A stretch of DNA of 33,932 nt, from contig JADFIY010000005.1 of NCBI GenBank assembly GCA_022566415.1, forward strand, positions 1-33,932. Reading direction: 5' to 3'. Origin of the DNA: Acidobacteriota bacterium. Its GTDB lineage: Bacteria; Actinomycetota; Acidimicrobiia; Spongiisociales; UBA5794. Positions 8,164-30,202 of the stretch are shown here, one piece after another. A program made the position numbers and the translations under genes. The notes beneath the pieces were generated by a model that saw only the letters and a program-made list of their open reading frames with translations, was not told the DNA's origin and did not search any database. The number at the start of each line of letters is the position of its first letter. Position 1 is the stretch's first letter.

Positions 8164-8856
8164 ATGGCGACCCCTGCCTTCTCCATCGTGATTCCCGTTC
8201 ACAACGAGGCCGACTACATGCCCGGTGCGCTTGCCGAGCTTTTCGCAGAGCTGTCCACCGTGCCCGCCTCGATCGAAGTGCTCATCGCGGAGAACGGATC
8301 GACGGACGGAAGTGCGGCGGTGGCGCGGGCGCTCATCCCCGATCATCCCGGATTGTCTGTGATCTCCCTGCCCACACCCGACTACGGGGCGGCGATGCGT
8401 GACGGCTTCGAAGCAACCGACGGCGACTGGGCGGTCAACTTCGACATCGATTACTTCTCGGGAGACTTCCTCAACGTGGTGCTCGATCTCGGCGACGGCG
8501 CCGACATCGTGCTCGCGTCAAAACGGGCGCCCGGTGCCGACGACCGCCGCTCCATGTTCCGTCGGTTTGCCACCTGGACGTTCAACAAGCTCCTCCGCTA
8601 CGGACTGGGGTCAGGGGTATCGGACACCCATGGCATGAAGGCGATCCGGCGCCAAGTCATCGCCGACATTGCGCCGCAGTGCAGGTCCACCCAGGATCTG
8701 TTCGACACCGAATTGGTAGTGCGGGCGGAGCGAGCCGGGTACCGGATCGTCGAGGTGCCGGCGATCGTCGAGGAGAAACGGGAGACGAAGTCCAGCCTGG
8801 TGGCCCGGGTACCGCGGACCTTGCGCGGCATGATCGCCATCCGGCGAAGCCTCTGA
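8164..8856 (+). CDS. Family 2 glycosyltransferase, dolichol-/polyprenyl-phosphate mannose synthase-like
   Basis: A 230-residue soluble GT2 with FSIVIPVHNEADY (6-18), IAENGSTDGS (about 40-49) and the metal/nucleotide site NFDIDYFSGDF (about 93-103), the DxD of the family. There is no C-terminal membrane anchor, as in single-domain Dpm1-type enzymes. Likely transfers a sugar from GDP- or UDP-sugar to a polyprenyl phosphate at the inner membrane face. It faces a GtrA gene and a large membrane protein across a palindromic repeat, and ManB would supply mannose-1-P, so polyprenyl-phosphate-mannose is a reasonable product (inference). The start follows a TACCCT box by seven bases. Confidence 0.88.
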   Translation: MATPAFSIVIPVHNEADYMPGALAELFAELSTVPASIEVLIAENGSTDGSAAVARALIPDHPGLSVISLPTPDYGAAMRDGFEATDGDWAVNFDIDYFSGDFLNVVLDLGDGADIVLASKRAPGADDRRSMFRRFATWTFNKLLRYGLGSGVSDTHGMKAIRRQVIADIAPQCRSTQDLFDTELVVRAERAGYRIVEVPAIVEEKRETKSSLVARVPRTLRGMIAIRRSL

Positions 8857-8863
8857 GAGCGTG

Positions 8864-9024
8864 CACCGATTAGACCGGTCGCCTCGACAGAAGCAGAACC
8901 ATTTTTTTCCGCTCTTGGCTACAGGCCGCTCGGGCCACGGCTCCGCAGATGGCCATTTCAACAAAGACGGGATCGCGCCCTATTTGCGAAGCGCCATTTT
9001 GCGTGGCCCGAGCGGGCCGTAGCC
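8864..9024. repeat. Large inverted repeat between convergent genes (8917-8939 and 9002-9024)
   Basis: Two 23-base arms match at 21 positions in inverted orientation, separated by 62 bases that themselves contain the inverted pair GGCCATTT/GCGCCATTTT. The left part, from CACCGAT at 8864 through GCGCCAT near 8997, is a diverged single copy of the element tandemly repeated at 12001-12354 (shared CCTCGACAGAAG, GGCCGCTCGGGCCACGGCTC and TCGCGCCCTA). It lies between the GT2 and GtrA stop codons, so as RNA it could end both transcripts. Size and symmetry recall a miniature inverted-repeat element, but I see no target-site duplication. Confidence 0.75.
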
Positions 9025-9060
9025 CAGAGACGGGAAAGCTTCTGGGGAGAGGACGGTCAG

Positions 9061-9525
9061 CTATCGGTGCTGTCTTTCGGCAGCCGTTTCCTCGGCAAGG
9101 GCCTTCCCGAACACGATGTCGCGGTAGGAGGCGAACTTGGGCAACAGGATGATCGCCGATGCGAACAGGTAGACGCCGTTGGCCGCCAGGTGCGACAGCG
9201 GTCCGAACAGAGTCTCGGCAAGCCACATCATGCCGGCGGTCCCCGCCCAGGCCGCCCCGTTGACGAGATAGAACTGGACCGTCTCTCGCCCGGAGACCTT
9301 GCCACCGCCAAGCTCGAAGGTCCAGATCCGGTTGAGCAGGTAGGACAGGAAGGTGGTGATGGCGAAGGCAACCGAAACCGCCAACACCGACGTCCAGTCG
9401 AAACCGATCAGGAACAGGTTGAACAGCGCAAACGACACCACGGTGTTCACCACTCCGATGACGCCGACCCTGATGAACTGGTTGAAAGACTTCCGATTGA
9501 GAAAACTCTCGAGGTACTGCTTCAC
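9061..9525 (-). CDS. GtrA-like membrane protein
   Basis: A 154-residue protein with four predicted membrane helices (about 18-40, 46-66, 86-108, 113-132) and the GtrA hallmarks FIRVGVIGVVNTVVSFALFN and SYLLNRIWTF. GtrA proteins are thought to flip or accommodate polyprenyl-phosphate-linked sugars and typically accompany a DPMS-like GT2, here at 8164. The ATG overlaps the stop of the upstream PTPS-related membrane protein gene (ATGA), making the two an operon on the minus strand. Confidence 0.92.
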   Translation of the reverse strand: MKQYLESFLNRKSFNQFIRVGVIGVVNTVVSFALFNLFLIGFDWTSVLAVSVAFAITTFLSYLLNRIWTFELGGGKVSGRETVQFYLVNGAAWAGTAGMMWLAETLFGPLSHLAANGVYLFASAIILLPKFASYRDIVFGKALAEETAAERQHR

Positions 9526-11729
9526 GTCGTGGTCCTCTCCCGTTCACGCCGTTCCCGTCGCAGGAGGTAGGCGTACGCCACCAGCCCGACGAGGGCGAAC
9601 ACGGTCACGGCCGTACCGATGTTCTCGGCAGCCGTGTTGCGGAACTCGAGGACCACGTTTTCTTGAGTTGGGACTACCACCATCAGTGACGGTGCGGCCC
9701 GATACGGCCCGTCGGCCCCGTCGGCCTGCCAATTGGGGAAATACGAGACCTTGACCAGGTGAGGCACGCCGACCGCAGTGGTGGTGAACGAGATACGGTG
9801 ATCCTCGAGCACGACGTTGCTCACCACACCGTTGGTCTGGTATGGCGCGTGGATGGCCAGTCGGTCCTCGACGGCGGCCACCGTCGTCCAATCCGCCGGT
9901 CCGGTCTCAACGAGCCAGCGGTCGAGGTTGGCGACGTCGTCATACCACTCGAGGGCCGGTTCAAGGAAATCACCTCCGCCGCCCCACACGGTCGGCTCGA
10001 AGCTGGCAACGTCAACGAGGTCGCTATCAGGGAGGGCGAAGATCGTCCACGGGGGCGCAACGGCCATTTCGTCGAGGCCGGCCACACGAGCTGCGTCCGC
10101 CCCACGCTCGGTGAAGCTCACGTAGTAGGCGACGTCGTAGAGGCCGAGGTGGGTGATCCCACGCTCCATGTCGAAGCCGTTGTATTCCAGGCCACGTACC
10201 GGGTTGGATGGGCGGTCGCTGACCTCCGATGCATTGAGGAAGTGAAACGGCGTTGTCAGGGATGACTCGAAGAACAAGCCCTCCATCGACGGGTGCTCCT
10301 CGCTCCAGTACCCGGTCAGCATCAGCGCCATCGGCGTCCCGTACTTGTTCATTTCGTTGTTTGCTTCCCACATCACCCGGCCCGGCGGGAGACGGTCGAT
10401 CTGCCCCATCAGGGCCTGGTATTCGGGATAGGTGGCCTTTCCTTCGTACCCCTCGAAATTCCACTTGACCCATCCGGGCACGTCGTGGATGTTGGCGATC
10501 GTTGCCGTCAGCAGGACCAGCCCTGCGAGCACAGTCCCTCCGATGAGAACGGGTCTTCGAAGCGCCGATCGTCTGGCGACTTCCGTGGCCCCGAGGCCGA
10601 GGGCGATGCCGGCAAATAGGAACATCCCGAAGTACCAGTACGGCAACAGCCTTGCGTTGTACAGGACGGTCACACCGAGCCTGGGGAGGATGAAGTAGCC
10701 GGCAAGCGGGAGCAGCGTCAGCCACACCAGAGCTGCGACATCGTCGCGGCGCAACATGGCCCAGATCATCCCGACACCGCCGAGCACCGCGATCGGGATG
10801 AACTCGCCGGGCAGGGGGGTCCCGGGACTGGCGTCGCCGAGGATGTTGGTCACCGGGGCCCATCCCATATCGGTGGTCATGCCGCCCCATACCCTCAGTC
10901 CGAGCGGCAGGGCCCAGAAGGCGGCGATGGCGAACCCGAGAATCCATGACGGGGCGACCGTGCGGGGACCGTTCTTCTTGAACAGGAGGGGCACGGTCGC
11001 CAATACGACGATGATCGTCGGCACGATATGGGCGAGCGCGGTCAGCGCGAGCAGGATGCCGGCGAGGGGGGTCCAACCACGAGCCTGCCTGACATCGCGC
11101 ACGACGACACCGAGATAGAGGATGGACAAGGCGAACGACCAGGAGAAGGAGAACTCACCAGCGAGGGTCGACTTGATGTTCCCCCCGAAGATGGAGTAGC
11201 TCTCCATGAACAGGAACATTCCCCCGGCGATCGCTGCCACCCCGCCGATCGGCCGCGAGTAGCCGAGCATCCTCACCAACAGGTAGGTGACGAAGGGCAA
11301 GGCCACAAGACCGGCGATAGTGACCAGCTTGAACGCCACCCCGTACGGGAGCACAACGTCGAGGAGGACGATGGTCAGCGCAGGGAGCGGGAAATAGAAG
11401 TAGAGGACCGGGAACCCCGCGTACCAGGCGTTGGACCAGCCCAGGATCCGGCCGGAGGGAAGCAGGCTGTCGGCAAGGACCTGCGGAAGGAGCACGTGTG
11501 CCCCCATGTCGCCGCCCGTCGGGGTATTGGCGACGAGCAACTGGGGGAACCGGATGAGGGAACCGGTACCGATCGTCCCAAGCGTCCCCGACATGATGAG
11601 CACGACGAGGAGGGTCGGAACGGCAACCAGTGCAACGATCAGCCACGTCGGCACAGGTTGGTGCGGGGTGAGGGTGCGGCGGGGCGGGGCGGACTCCGGA
11701 ACGGTTATCCGCGCAGTGGTCGTCACCAC
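9522..11729 (-). CDS. Large integral membrane protein with 6-pyruvoyl-tetrahydropterin-synthase-related (GT-C-like) domain
   Basis: About 735 residues. After a Thr/Pro-rich cytoplasmic start come a dozen or so hydrophobic helices. The first long loop has TGGDMGAHVLLPQVLAD, then GRILGWSNAWYAGFPVLYFYFPLPAL, the signature of the PTPS-related membrane family; the Asp-rich first loop is GT-C-like. The C-terminal 250 residues form a non-membrane domain followed by a final helix and an Arg-rich tail. No pterin enzyme activity is implied. With GtrA and the DPMS-like enzyme nearby, a polyprenyl-phosphate-sugar-using glycosyltransferase is plausible (inference). Starts as GTG GTG; the second, at 11726, lies seven bases after a TAGCCT box. 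Confidence 0.82.
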   Translation of the reverse strand: MVTTTARITVPESAPPRRTLTPHQPVPTWLIVALVAVPTLLVVLIMSGTLGTIGTGSLIRFPQLLVANTPTGGDMGAHVLLPQVLADSLLPSGRILGWSNAWYAGFPVLYFYFPLPALTIVLLDVVLPYGVAFKLVTIAGLVALPFVTYLLVRMLGYSRPIGGVAAIAGGMFLFMESYSIFGGNIKSTLAGEFSFSWSFALSILYLGVVVRDVRQARGWTPLAGILLALTALAHIVPTIIVVLATVPLLFKKNGPRTVAPSWILGFAIAAFWALPLGLRVWGGMTTDMGWAPVTNILGDASPGTPLPGEFIPIAVLGGVGMIWAMLRRDDVAALVWLTLLPLAGYFILPRLGVTVLYNARLLPYWYFGMFLFAGIALGLGATEVARRSALRRPVLIGGTVLAGLVLLTATIANIHDVPGWVKWNFEGYEGKATYPEYQALMGQIDRLPPGRVMWEANNEMNKYGTPMALMLTGYWSEEHPSMEGLFFESSLTTPFHFLNASEVSDRPSNPVRGLEYNGFDMERGITHLGLYDVAYYVSFTERGADAARVAGLDEMAVAPPWTIFALPDSDLVDVASFEPTVWGGGGDFLEPALEWYDDVANLDRWLVETGPADWTTVAAVEDRLAIHAPYQTNGVVSNVVLEDHRISFTTTAVGVPHLVKVSYFPNWQADGADGPYRAAPSLMVVVPTQENVVLEFRNTAAENIGTAVTVFALVGLVAYAYLLRRERRERERTTT

Positions 11730-11733
11730 GGGC

Positions 11734-11739
11734 AGGCTA
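11734..11739 (-). promoter_or_regulatory. Candidate -10 box for the PTPS-related gene
   Basis: TAGCCT on the minus strand, seven bases before the GTG at 11726 and four before the GTG at 11729. No Shine-Dalgarno is visible, so the second GTG may be the leaderless start. Confidence 0.35.
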
Positions 11740-11766
11740 GTGAGACAAGCCCCTTAGGGCGCGTGG

Positions 11767-11967
11767 TTAGACGTGTCTGCGGTTCAGGTCGACGAGGGCA
11801 TCGAGCTCGAGATGGTCTCCGTCCCGATCCCACCACTTCGACTCGCAACGGTGGCACGAGCAAAAGATGACCTCAGATCCGTCGGGGAGCGTGAGCTCGA
11901 TCTGGATGACGGACTCGTTGCCGCATTCCTCGCAGCGCAATCCGGAGGTGGGTTCTTGCCTTCCCAT
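11767..11967 (-). CDS. Small zinc-ribbon protein of unknown function
   Basis: A 66-residue protein, MGRQEPTSGLRCEECGNE followed by a beta-rich stretch IQIELTLPDGSEVIFCSCHRCESKWW and an acidic tail ending LNRRHV. The CxxC...CxCxxC spacing (Cys12, Cys15, then Cys35, Cys37, Cys40) and the preceding strands make a four-Cys zinc ribbon with an extra cysteine. I recognise no named family; single zinc ribbons of this size are often nucleic-acid or protein adaptors. The ATG at 11967 is chosen over an upstream in-frame start because the longer version translates the 104-bp repeat. It lies eight bases after TACTGT, without a Shine-Dalgarno. Confidence 0.68.
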   Translation of the reverse strand: MGRQEPTSGLRCEECGNESVIQIELTLPDGSEVIFCSCHRCESKWWDRDGDHLELDALVDLNRRHV

Positions 11968-11975
11968 GGCAGGAA

Positions 11976-11981
11976 ACAGTA
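11976..11981 (-). promoter_or_regulatory. Candidate -10 box for the zinc-ribbon gene
   Basis: TACTGT on the minus strand, eight bases before the ATG at 11967. The region farther upstream is the tandem repeat array, so any -35 would lie at its edge. Confidence 0.35.
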
Positions 11982-12000
11982 GCGCGTTAGGCGCGAAAAG

Positions 12001-12354
12001 CACCGATGGGTGACCGGTGGCCTCGACAGAAGTGGAGCGAACCCCTTTCCCGCTCCTGCCGCTTCGCGGCGGGCCGCTCGGGCCACGGCTCCGCCAAATC
12101 GCCTTCGCTGACAAAACACCAGGTCGCGCCCTACATGCGGAGCGCCATCTCTCCCGCTCACGCCGCTCCGCGGCGGGCCGCTCGGGCCACGGCTCCGCCC
12201 AATCGCCTTCGCTGACAAAACACCAGGTCGCGCCCTACATGCGGAGCGCCATCTCTCCCGCTCACGCCGCTCCGCGGCGGGCCGCTCGGGCCCCGGCTCC
12301 GCCAAATCGCCTTCGCTCACAAAAGACCAGGTCGCGCCCTACATGCGGAGCCTC
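12001..12354. repeat. Tandem repeat of a 104-bp unit, three copies
   Basis: The landmark GGGCCGCTCGGGCC starts at 12071, 12175 and 12279, giving an exact 104-base period. Each unit holds CGCCGCTCCGCGGCGGGCC-type palindromes, the segment CGCCTTCGCTGACAAAACAC, and TCGCGCCCTACATGCGGAGC. Copies 2 and 3 differ at only a few positions, copy 1 at a few more; the third is cut short at GCGGAGCCTCTAG, which supplies the end of the DUF6788-like gene. The first copy carries an extra head (CACCGAT to about 12047) that is also present at 8864. This fills the 386-base gap between the two small genes; I see no gene or transposase in it. Confidence 0.88.
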
Positions 12355-12641
12355 TAGACGCGAAAAGCTGCCTCAGGCAGATCCTCGAGCTTCCCGAGGT
12401 AGCGAGATCGTCTTCGACCGTCCTCGGACCAGTACGCGTACCAGTACGGCCCGTGCGGACAGCGGGTGCAGCTGTCCTTGCCACAACGGACCTTTTGCTG
12501 ACGAAGCTTCACCTTGGGGCCGGAGCCAGACAACGTCATGCCGCGGCTCTCGAGGCGAGCCTTGGTCAGGATGTAGAGCCGACGGAGCTGATGCTCGTCC
12601 ATCTCGCGTACCGCTTCGAGCACGTCGCGGTCGATCGGCAT
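12354..12641 (-). CDS. Small DUF6788-like Cys-rich protein
   Basis: A 95-residue protein. The first half is a charged helical region (DRDVLEAVREMDEHQLRRLYILTKARLESRG); the second half is KVRCGKDSCTRCPHGPYWYAYW followed by SRYLGKLEDLPEAAF. The CGKxxCxxC-HGPYWYxYW-RSRYLGK pattern matches small proteins annotated DUF6788, often found near mobile DNA; the function is unknown. The cysteines (four closely spaced) probably bind zinc, and the aromatic strand may contact nucleic acid (inference). The ATG at 12641 has GGAGGGAG just upstream (12646-12653), one of the strongest ribosome-binding sites in the window. Its stop codon lies at the edge of the 104-bp repeat array. Confidence 0.72.
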   Translation of the reverse strand: MPIDRDVLEAVREMDEHQLRRLYILTKARLESRGMTLSGSGPKVKLRQQKVRCGKDSCTRCPHGPYWYAYWSEDGRRRSRYLGKLEDLPEAAFRV

Positions 12642-12738
12642 CGGTCTCCCTCCAGCGGGCTGGACGCTGGAACTTAGGAACCGGGCGAGACGAGTCCAAG
12701 GATCAATGGCCAGGATCGCGTGCTGAGAGTCGCGACTC

Positions 12739-12793
12739 TTCGCCTCTCCCACGAAGTGGCGCAAGCGAAGCTTGCTCGCGGAGGGGGCTCTGG
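12739..12793. repeat. Dispersed GC-rich palindromic element, copy 2
   Basis: Starts TTCGCCTCTCCC and ends CGGAGGGGGCTCTGG like the copy at 7912-7986. The core contains the hairpin GCAAGCGAAGCTTGC, and the left edge overlaps a perfect 14-base palindrome, AGAGTCGCGACTCT (12726-12739). It lies in the 211-base gap between the thioredoxin-like gene and the DUF6788-like gene; the rest of the gap holds only the Shine-Dalgarno of the latter. Confidence 0.55.
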
Positions 12794-12852
12794 AGGCCAG
12801 CCGAAGAAGATGAGCTCACCTGACCCACTCTCCCAGAGCCCTCAACGAACAA

Positions 12853-13236
12853 CTACTCCAGCAACCCCGCGCGCCTGACAGCGCGGCGTAGTGCGCCGCG
12901 TCGCGGCACACCAGCGGCGAGCAACTCGGTGTGTCCTACAGCGTCGACGACGGTGACGAGCGGCACCGCCTCGACGCCGACGCTCTCGAAGACACCGGGC
13001 TCGAGCTCCCAGGTGATCTCACGGACCTCGACACCGAAAGATCCGACCACAGCAAGGGCCTCCTTGCAGTTGGTGCAATCGGTGGACGTGAACAGCACGA
13101 CACCGGGACGGGGGCCAATGTCACCGAGGTCGATCGACGGGTGTGACGGGCGCCGCAACCGACCGGCAAGGCGCATCACAACGATCACGATGACTGCGGC
13201 AACAAGAACGATCACAACGCGTGTTGCGATCGTCAT
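12853..13236 (-). CDS. Membrane-anchored thioredoxin-like protein
   Basis: A 127-residue protein with an N-terminal hydrophobic helix (about 5-22, VVIVLVAAVIVIVVM) and a thioredoxin-fold domain. The active-site loop is FTSTDCTNC (Cys54, Cys57), and the cis-proline is in EAVPLV (Pro92), the spacing expected of the fold. The Arg-rich residues after the helix (RLAGRLRRP) suggest that the domain faces the cytoplasm by the positive-inside rule, which is odd for a thiol oxidoreductase of envelope proteins; orientation is uncertain. The ATG overlaps the DUF5719 stop (ATGA), so it is translated with that gene. Confidence 0.82.
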   Translation of the reverse strand: MTIATRVVIVLVAAVIVIVVMRLAGRLRRPSHPSIDLGDIGPRPGVVLFTSTDCTNCKEALAVVGSFGVEVREITWELEPGVFESVGVEAVPLVTVVDAVGHTELLAAGVPRRGALRRAVRRAGLLE

Positions 13237-19150: not shown

Positions 19151-20038
19151 ATGCCTGAGCTTCCTGAGATCGAGGCGTACCTGCACGCCCTGCGCCCTCG
19201 GGTGGTCGGCCATGAGCTGGAGCAGCTGAGGGTCGCCAGCTTCTCGCTGCTCCGAACCTACGACCCCCCGACGACCGCCGTCGAGGGGAAGGCAGTCACC
19301 GGAGTCCACCGCATCGGGAAGCGCATCGCCATCGACCTCGAGGAGGATCTCGCCGTGGTGATCCATCTGATGGTCGCAGGGCGCCTGAAGTGGCTCGAAC
19401 ACGGGGCGGCTGTCCCGAAGCGATACGGGCTCGCTGCCATCGACTTCGACAACGGGACCCTGCTGCTCACCGAGGCAGGAACCAAGCGGCGAGCGACGAT
19501 GCACCTCGTTCGGGGAGAAGAATCGTTGGCCGCACTCGATCCCGGCGGCGCCGAGATCGCGGACCTGGACCGCGAAGCGTTCAAGGAGCGCCTGCTCACC
19601 GAGCGGCATACGCTGAAACGCACGCTCACCGACGCCCGGTTCTTCTCCGGCATCGGGGGCGCCTTCGCCGACGAGATCTTGTGGCGTGCGAAGCTCTCCC
19701 CGACCCAGATGAACACCAACCTGGACGACCAGGAGATCGCACGCCTGCATGAGGCGGCGGTCGATGTGCTCGACCGCTGGACGGCGGCGCGCATCGAAGA
19801 AACCGGAGATGGCTTCCCAGAAAAGGTGACGGCCTTTCACCCCGACATGGGCGTGCACGGCAAGTTCGGCGAGCCGTGCCCGGTGTGTGGCGCGCCCATA
19901 CAGCGGATCGTCCACGGTGGCCGTGAAACCAATTACTGCCCTGGCTGCCAGACCGGAGGGAAGATCCTGGCCGACCGTGCCCTGTCGCGACTCCTCAAAA
20001 ACGACTGGCCGAAGACGCTCGACGACTTAGTGGAGTGA
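19151..20038 (+). CDS. Formamidopyrimidine-DNA glycosylase / endonuclease VIII family (Fpg/Nei)
   Basis: A 295-residue base-excision repair glycosylase/AP lyase. The start MPELPEIE exposes the catalytic Pro2 and Glu after Met removal; HRIGKRIAI carries the conserved beta-hairpin Lys; the H2TH region is FSGIGGAFADEILWRAKLSP; the zinc finger is CPVCGAPIQR...ETNYCPGCQTGG near residues 245-275. The LSPTQ and QTGGK features are family-typical. Whether it is Fpg (8-oxoguanine) or Nei-like cannot be decided from sequence alone, since the alphaF-beta9 loop is short. The ATG has GAGAGG about nine bases upstream. It lies 12 bases after cofE and probably shares its transcript. Confidence 0.93.
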   Translation: MPELPEIEAYLHALRPRVVGHELEQLRVASFSLLRTYDPPTTAVEGKAVTGVHRIGKRIAIDLEEDLAVVIHLMVAGRLKWLEHGAAVPKRYGLAAIDFDNGTLLLTEAGTKRRATMHLVRGEESLAALDPGGAEIADLDREAFKERLLTERHTLKRTLTDARFFSGIGGAFADEILWRAKLSPTQMNTNLDDQEIARLHEAAVDVLDRWTAARIEETGDGFPEKVTAFHPDMGVHGKFGEPCPVCGAPIQRIVHGGRETNYCPGCQTGGKILADRALSRLLKNDWPKTLDDLVE

Positions 20039-20170
20039 CCAGTTACCAGTTCCCAGCAAGAAGGGATTCAGTTACTAGTTACCAGTTCCCAGCAAGAAGG
20101 GAACGACCCCTGCGCCCACCCGTCAGGTCTGCGGCGATTAGCAACTGGCATTGCCCAACTGGGAACTTTT
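20039..20170. repeat. Heptad repeat block with direct 26-base duplication and hairpin, nei/epimerase gap
   Basis: Between the two convergent stop codons. Positions 20041-20066 and 20077-20102 are identical over 26 bases (AGTTACCAGTTCCCAG then CAAGAAGGGA). The inverted partner CTGGGAACT at 20159-20167, followed by TTT, pairs with AGTTCCCAG at 20084-20092. Units are AGTTACC and AGTTCCC. Probable bidirectional terminator (inference). Confidence 0.78.
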
Positions 20171-30103: not shown

Positions 30104-30202
30104 GAAGTCGCAAGAGGCAAGTCGCAAGTCGCAAGTAGTTCCCAGTTTCCAGTTGCCGGAGACCGGGGACCGGGGGCGAGCGCGGCGAGCGGACTGGGAA
30201 CT
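30104..30202. repeat. Heptad repeat block with hairpin downstream of the PBP gene
   Basis: AAGTCGC units (30106-30136) switch to AGTTCCC/AGTTTCC units. AGTTCCCAGT at 30137-30146 pairs with ACTGGGAACT at 30193-30202 over 10 bases across a GC-rich loop, followed by CTTTCCGCTTTC. Possible terminator of the PBP transcript; the following gene is co-directional. Confidence 0.68.

Follow-up and report, generated by a model that had tools for sequence, protein, structure and literature searches.

The window, by which we mean the whole 33,932-nt stretch of DNA analysed, carries a tandem array between a zinc-ribbon-like ORF and a DUF6788-like gene, and a second copy of the same element beside a glycosyltransferase gene. 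The features of the two elements are as follows.

8854-8856, plus strand: TGA stop codon of the glycosyltransferase gene (8164-8856), adjoining the left end of the second element
8857-8996, plus strand: second copy, consisting of a head and one body unit with core type B (repeat finding; covariance-model match at 8856-8996)
8997-9073, minus strand: incomplete copy in inverted orientation, comprising core B and the head in antisense (inverted pairs I3 and I6)
11988-12001, plus strand: left one of two near-identical 14-nt direct repeats that bracket the array, TAGGCGCGAAAAGC (repeat finding, family D14)
11997-12044, plus strand: head of the window element, with a degenerate left end GCGAAAAGCACCGATGGG... 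where the family consensus reads GAGCGCGCACCGATAGG... (covariance-model match at 11997-12147)
12045-12148, plus strand: body unit 1 of the array (repeat finding, unit comparison)
12149-12252, plus strand: body unit 2 (repeat finding, unit comparison)
12253-12353, plus strand: body unit 3 and right terminus GCGGAGCCTC (repeat finding, unit comparison, end comparison)
12354-12356, minus strand: triplet adjoining the right end of the array, the TAG stop codon of the DUF6788-like gene (12354-12641/12764)
12355-12368, plus strand: right member of the 14-nt direct repeat, TAGACGCGAAAAGC (repeat finding, family D14)

A first-pass annotation of this DNA had described a three-copy tandem array of 104 bases, and the array proved to be real. 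TRF reported a period of 104 with 2.9 copies, 96% matches and 0 indels at 12048-12351, and the repeat finder, run on the window, gave units at 12045-12148, 12149-12252 and 12253-12356 with 100, 95 and 89% identity. As had also been noted, the array starts just outside the zinc-ribbon ORF (11767-11967; 66 aa, with a sub-threshold match to transcription factor S), at a distance of about 30 nt, and ends where the DUF6788-like gene ends, the Pfam match of which is weak (E=0.002). Long ORFs run across the array, yet the codon-usage gene caller places no gene there, so the statement that it lacks a coding signal holds. The altered left end of the head was also present in the ortholog L082. Other tandem repeats in the window lie at 20034-20102 (36 bp x 1.9) and 30105-30136 (7 bp x 4.6).

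The recurrence of head plus body that had been seen near 8864 was located at about 8857-8996, and the partial inverted copy that continues it to about 9073 had been missed. The GtrA-like gene at 9061-9525 takes its final codons and its TAG stop (9061-9063) from this inverted copy, the source of the stop being the inverted head at 9054-9073. Both elements in the window touch gene stop codons.

Searching the window's own genome (G000; 2.57 Mb, 272 contigs, 92% complete) with the array as query gave at least 44 matches. When patterns were counted with up to 3 mismatches allowed, 79 heads and 139 body cores were found in this genome and 31 heads and 57 cores in G001, which was the sole further genome from this genus in the analysis (60% complete); reversed patterns gave 0-1 matches. 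A covariance model built on 36 one-unit copies detected the family in 2 of 50 genomes of the taxonomic family, G000 and G001, and no relative in the other 48. Outside the genus only fragments of 22-30 nt were found; plasmids and phages gave no relative, and an exact 26-mer search of viral contigs gave no match. A match to a known IS or RNA family, which had been raised earlier as a possible outcome, was likewise not found, the Rfam covariance models giving no match over 8700-12900 up to E=1. These data show that the window array belongs to a dispersed family of about 80 copies that is restricted to the genus. The first-pass annotation had called the family dispersed, correctly, but had missed this scale. 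The sister MAG (G001) is labelled Acidobacteria, although F420 biosynthesis genes of a kind that is common in actinobacteria are present in the window genome, with CofD and F420 ligase genes in the window itself; the label may be wrong.

Comparison of 87 distinct copies revealed the anatomy of the element. A complete copy consists of a head of about 44 nt (consensus 1-44), one to four bodies of about 102 nt (45-146) and a CTC(T) tail; the one-unit form is about 146 bp, and no gene was called over the element. Its termini are imperfect inverted repeats starting with GAG (GAGCGCGCACCGATAG...CCGGTC versus GAGGCTCCGCAAATAG...CCGGTC), and only 6 of 2000 shuffles scored as high as the left end compared with the reverse complement of the right end. 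Among 59 copies the commonest ends were GAGCGC on the left and GCCTC on the right, and the element ends are given as GAGCGCGCACC/GAGGCTCCGCA. Elements occur in both orientations, and at L053, L055 and L066 whole elements stand in tandem pairs 3 bp apart. Two head-only sites, L062 and L074, were considered as candidates for an autonomous element and turned out to be decayed copies with no transposase in the sequence examined.

We compared the joined flanks of 21 sites with both genomes and found three G000 sites (L039, L060 and L063) that are empty in G001. Alignment of filled and empty sites placed the element boundaries at GAG...CTC and revealed duplicated triplets, TTA at L039, TCA at L060 and TTA at L063. 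In two of these cases the two triplets differ by a single-base change in one of them. Across 59 copies, the left and right triplets agreed beyond shuffled expectation (p=0.007). The 14-nt direct repeat around the window array is far longer than the 3-bp duplication of the other copies, and part of it is found in the G001 ortholog. Short repeats that resemble CAGTTACCAGT/GATGACTG and are similar to the short tandem repeats at 20034-20102 and 30105-30136 occur beside elements elsewhere (e.g. L047, L071). At one further site (L027 in G000, L114 in G001) the element lies in opposite orientations in the two genomes, reflecting either an inversion in place or two separate insertion events at one target; the L114 copy holds an extra unrelated insert of about 100 bp.

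High copy number, hairpins, intergenic positions beside gene ends and occurrence in both orientations are also features of REP/BIME-type palindromic repeats, which are spread by a Y1 (RAYT) transposase. However, no Y1 transposase was found in G000 or G001, whereas control genomes did give matches, and our elements show inverted termini together with a 3-bp duplication. Y1 transposition is not known to make such a duplication. We therefore regard a REP/BIME origin as highly improbable.

The 3-bp TNA duplication fits the rule of the IS1031 group of IS5: members of that group insert at TNA with 3-bp repeats and have an end reading GAACCTG, so that the termini start with GA(G/A) in both (PMC12016507). 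The difference is that our element carries no transposase of its own and that no IS1031-like transposase was found in G000 or G001. The IS5-type transposase families PF13340, PF13359 and PF13586 were absent from both genomes, which are incomplete, and no autonomous element sharing the ends was found in either (92% and 60% complete). PF01609 matched a single IS1182 gene in G001, and in G000 it matched a fragment. The G001 gene is part of a complete IS1182 element whose inverted ends match perfectly over 16 bp (L119:615-2383). As the sole full DDE transposase it was considered as the mobiliser and rejected, its ends (GCTAGGAGTCTGCTGA) being unrelated to the element. Because no such transposase was found, we can only infer the mobiliser: a DDE transposase, most likely IS5/IS1031-like, would act in trans and recognise the GAG...CTC ends.

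The contact with stop codons seen in the window recurs across the family. Using genes predicted by a codon-usage caller trained on these loci, we placed 35 of 86 elements at most 4 nt from the 3' end of a gene, whereas only 1 of 148 element ends lies that near a 5' end. Of the three empty sites, two already had the stop codon before insertion. With element bases removed, the share of stop codons among the permissible TNA sites is 18% in the loci and 28% in the window, and the enrichment at stop codons is thus modest, 1.5-2.3 fold. Selection in a compact genome together with the TNA rule could explain it. Many copies would lie exactly at stop codons because in a compact, GC-rich genome the TNA sites left by selection may often be stop codons.

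The position of many copies directly 3' of stop codons would also be expected of a functional structured RNA or 3'-UTR regulator (a terminator or stabiliser) that is kept by selection and amplified by duplication. The outer body stem (GGCTCCGC/GCGGAGC) speaks for this possibility, being about 95% paired and showing, in a test on 75 one-per-array units, 5 compensatory cells where shuffles averaged 1.6, with 5 of 500 shuffles reaching the observed count. But the core hairpins showed 0 compensatory changes, the inner stem was unconvincing in that sliding it by 1-3 columns yielded at least as many compensatory cells, and the full-element alignment gave one compensatory pair only. The strong palindromes reported earlier stood in part: each unit contains hairpins, and the one-unit element as DNA folds better than its shuffles (z -2.3), whereas the RNA of the whole array shows no such advantage (z -0.23). 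Copies in both orientations and at species-specific sites, and the absence of an Rfam match, also argue against a selected RNA. The first-pass annotation had listed a structured RNA as a candidate, and we found nothing beyond a conserved stem with a few compensatory changes to support it. Nothing in these data pointed to the protein-binding array that it had also listed. Taken together, the folding data fit the hairpins of a mobile element and do not demonstrate an RNA function, which is weakly supported at best; as the explanation of the family we consider it improbable. Transcripts of the element would form 3'-UTR hairpins, likely as a side effect and not as the reason for its existence.

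Orthologous arrays were compared between the two genomes. L012 has three units in G000 and one in G001, and L057 has two units in G000 and three in G001. At the window site both genomes have three units, near-identical to one another in G000 and mutually different in G001. Because orthologous arrays differ in unit number and sequence, we conclude that units turn over in place. The worry, voiced earlier, that the array is an assembly artefact is unlikely to be justified, because G001 carries a three-unit array at the same site with different unit sequences. That the array is a simple minisatellite, or such an artefact, with no mobility involved is scarcely credible: several copies do lie at contig ends, as is usual for repeats, but the roughly 80 dispersed sites, the empty sites and the orthologous arrays in an independent assembly all stand against it.

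In the left part and in each half of the variable arm, identity within arrays was higher than between arrays (0 of 1000 permutations); the body core showed no such excess (104 of 1000). Core type A was found in 39 of 42 later units, whereas type B occupied 16 of 36 first units (Fisher p=0.00016), a pattern not accounted for by plain duplication. Most of the observations on turnover are explained by slippage, unequal exchange or gene conversion, through which body units would multiply and homogenise in place. A more speculative possibility, to which we give little weight, is templated growth, in which an added unit would combine the family-wide core A with a copy of the resident variable arm and not arise by plain duplication. 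Its route, equally doubtful, might be an element-specific template switching or directed conversion between dispersed copies.

These results suggest that the array is very probably a copy of a non-autonomous MITE with a modular, BOX-like A-Bn-C anatomy, moved in trans by a putative transposase. The assignment to MITEs rests on copy number, ends and target duplications. The first-pass annotation had proposed a MITE-like element expanded in tandem, and this is borne out by the dispersed copies, the defined imperfect inverted ends, the 3-bp duplications at empty sites and a length that varies between species. The family is a new, genus-restricted one of a known kind, and some of its sites are occupied in one species but vacant in the other. 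Filled, empty and length-variant sites can be matched between the two sister genomes, which makes them a workable case for studying how middle units multiply and what brings small transposons to settle at stop codons.

Several known systems resemble this family. The Correia, RUP and Nezha MITEs are likewise short, non-coding and present in high copy number, with inverted ends, target duplications and hairpins, but they differ from our element in that it has one to four tandem bodies that homogenise within each array and is not AT-rich. REP/BIME repeats with RAYT are similarly palindromic, intergenic and beside gene ends; here, RAYT is missing and a target duplication is present. BOX elements (boxA-boxBn-boxC) of Streptococcus pneumoniae share the modular head, variable tandem middle and tail, the inverted ends and target duplications, a size at one site that varies between strains, and the frequent supply of stop codons at gene 3' ends, which accounts for 36 of 58 CDS overlaps; whole pneumococcal BOX elements measure 67-637 bp (PMC3049150). 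Our family differs in its GC-rich host, its body unit of about 102 nt and its TNA duplication, and the comparison is an analogy of architecture only, no common origin being known and no descent claimed. The present elements thus add a family of BOX-like modular MITEs in an uncultured lineage that is GC-rich and encodes F420, and because this lineage is far from streptococci, they suggest more than one origin of the head-(body)n-tail design.
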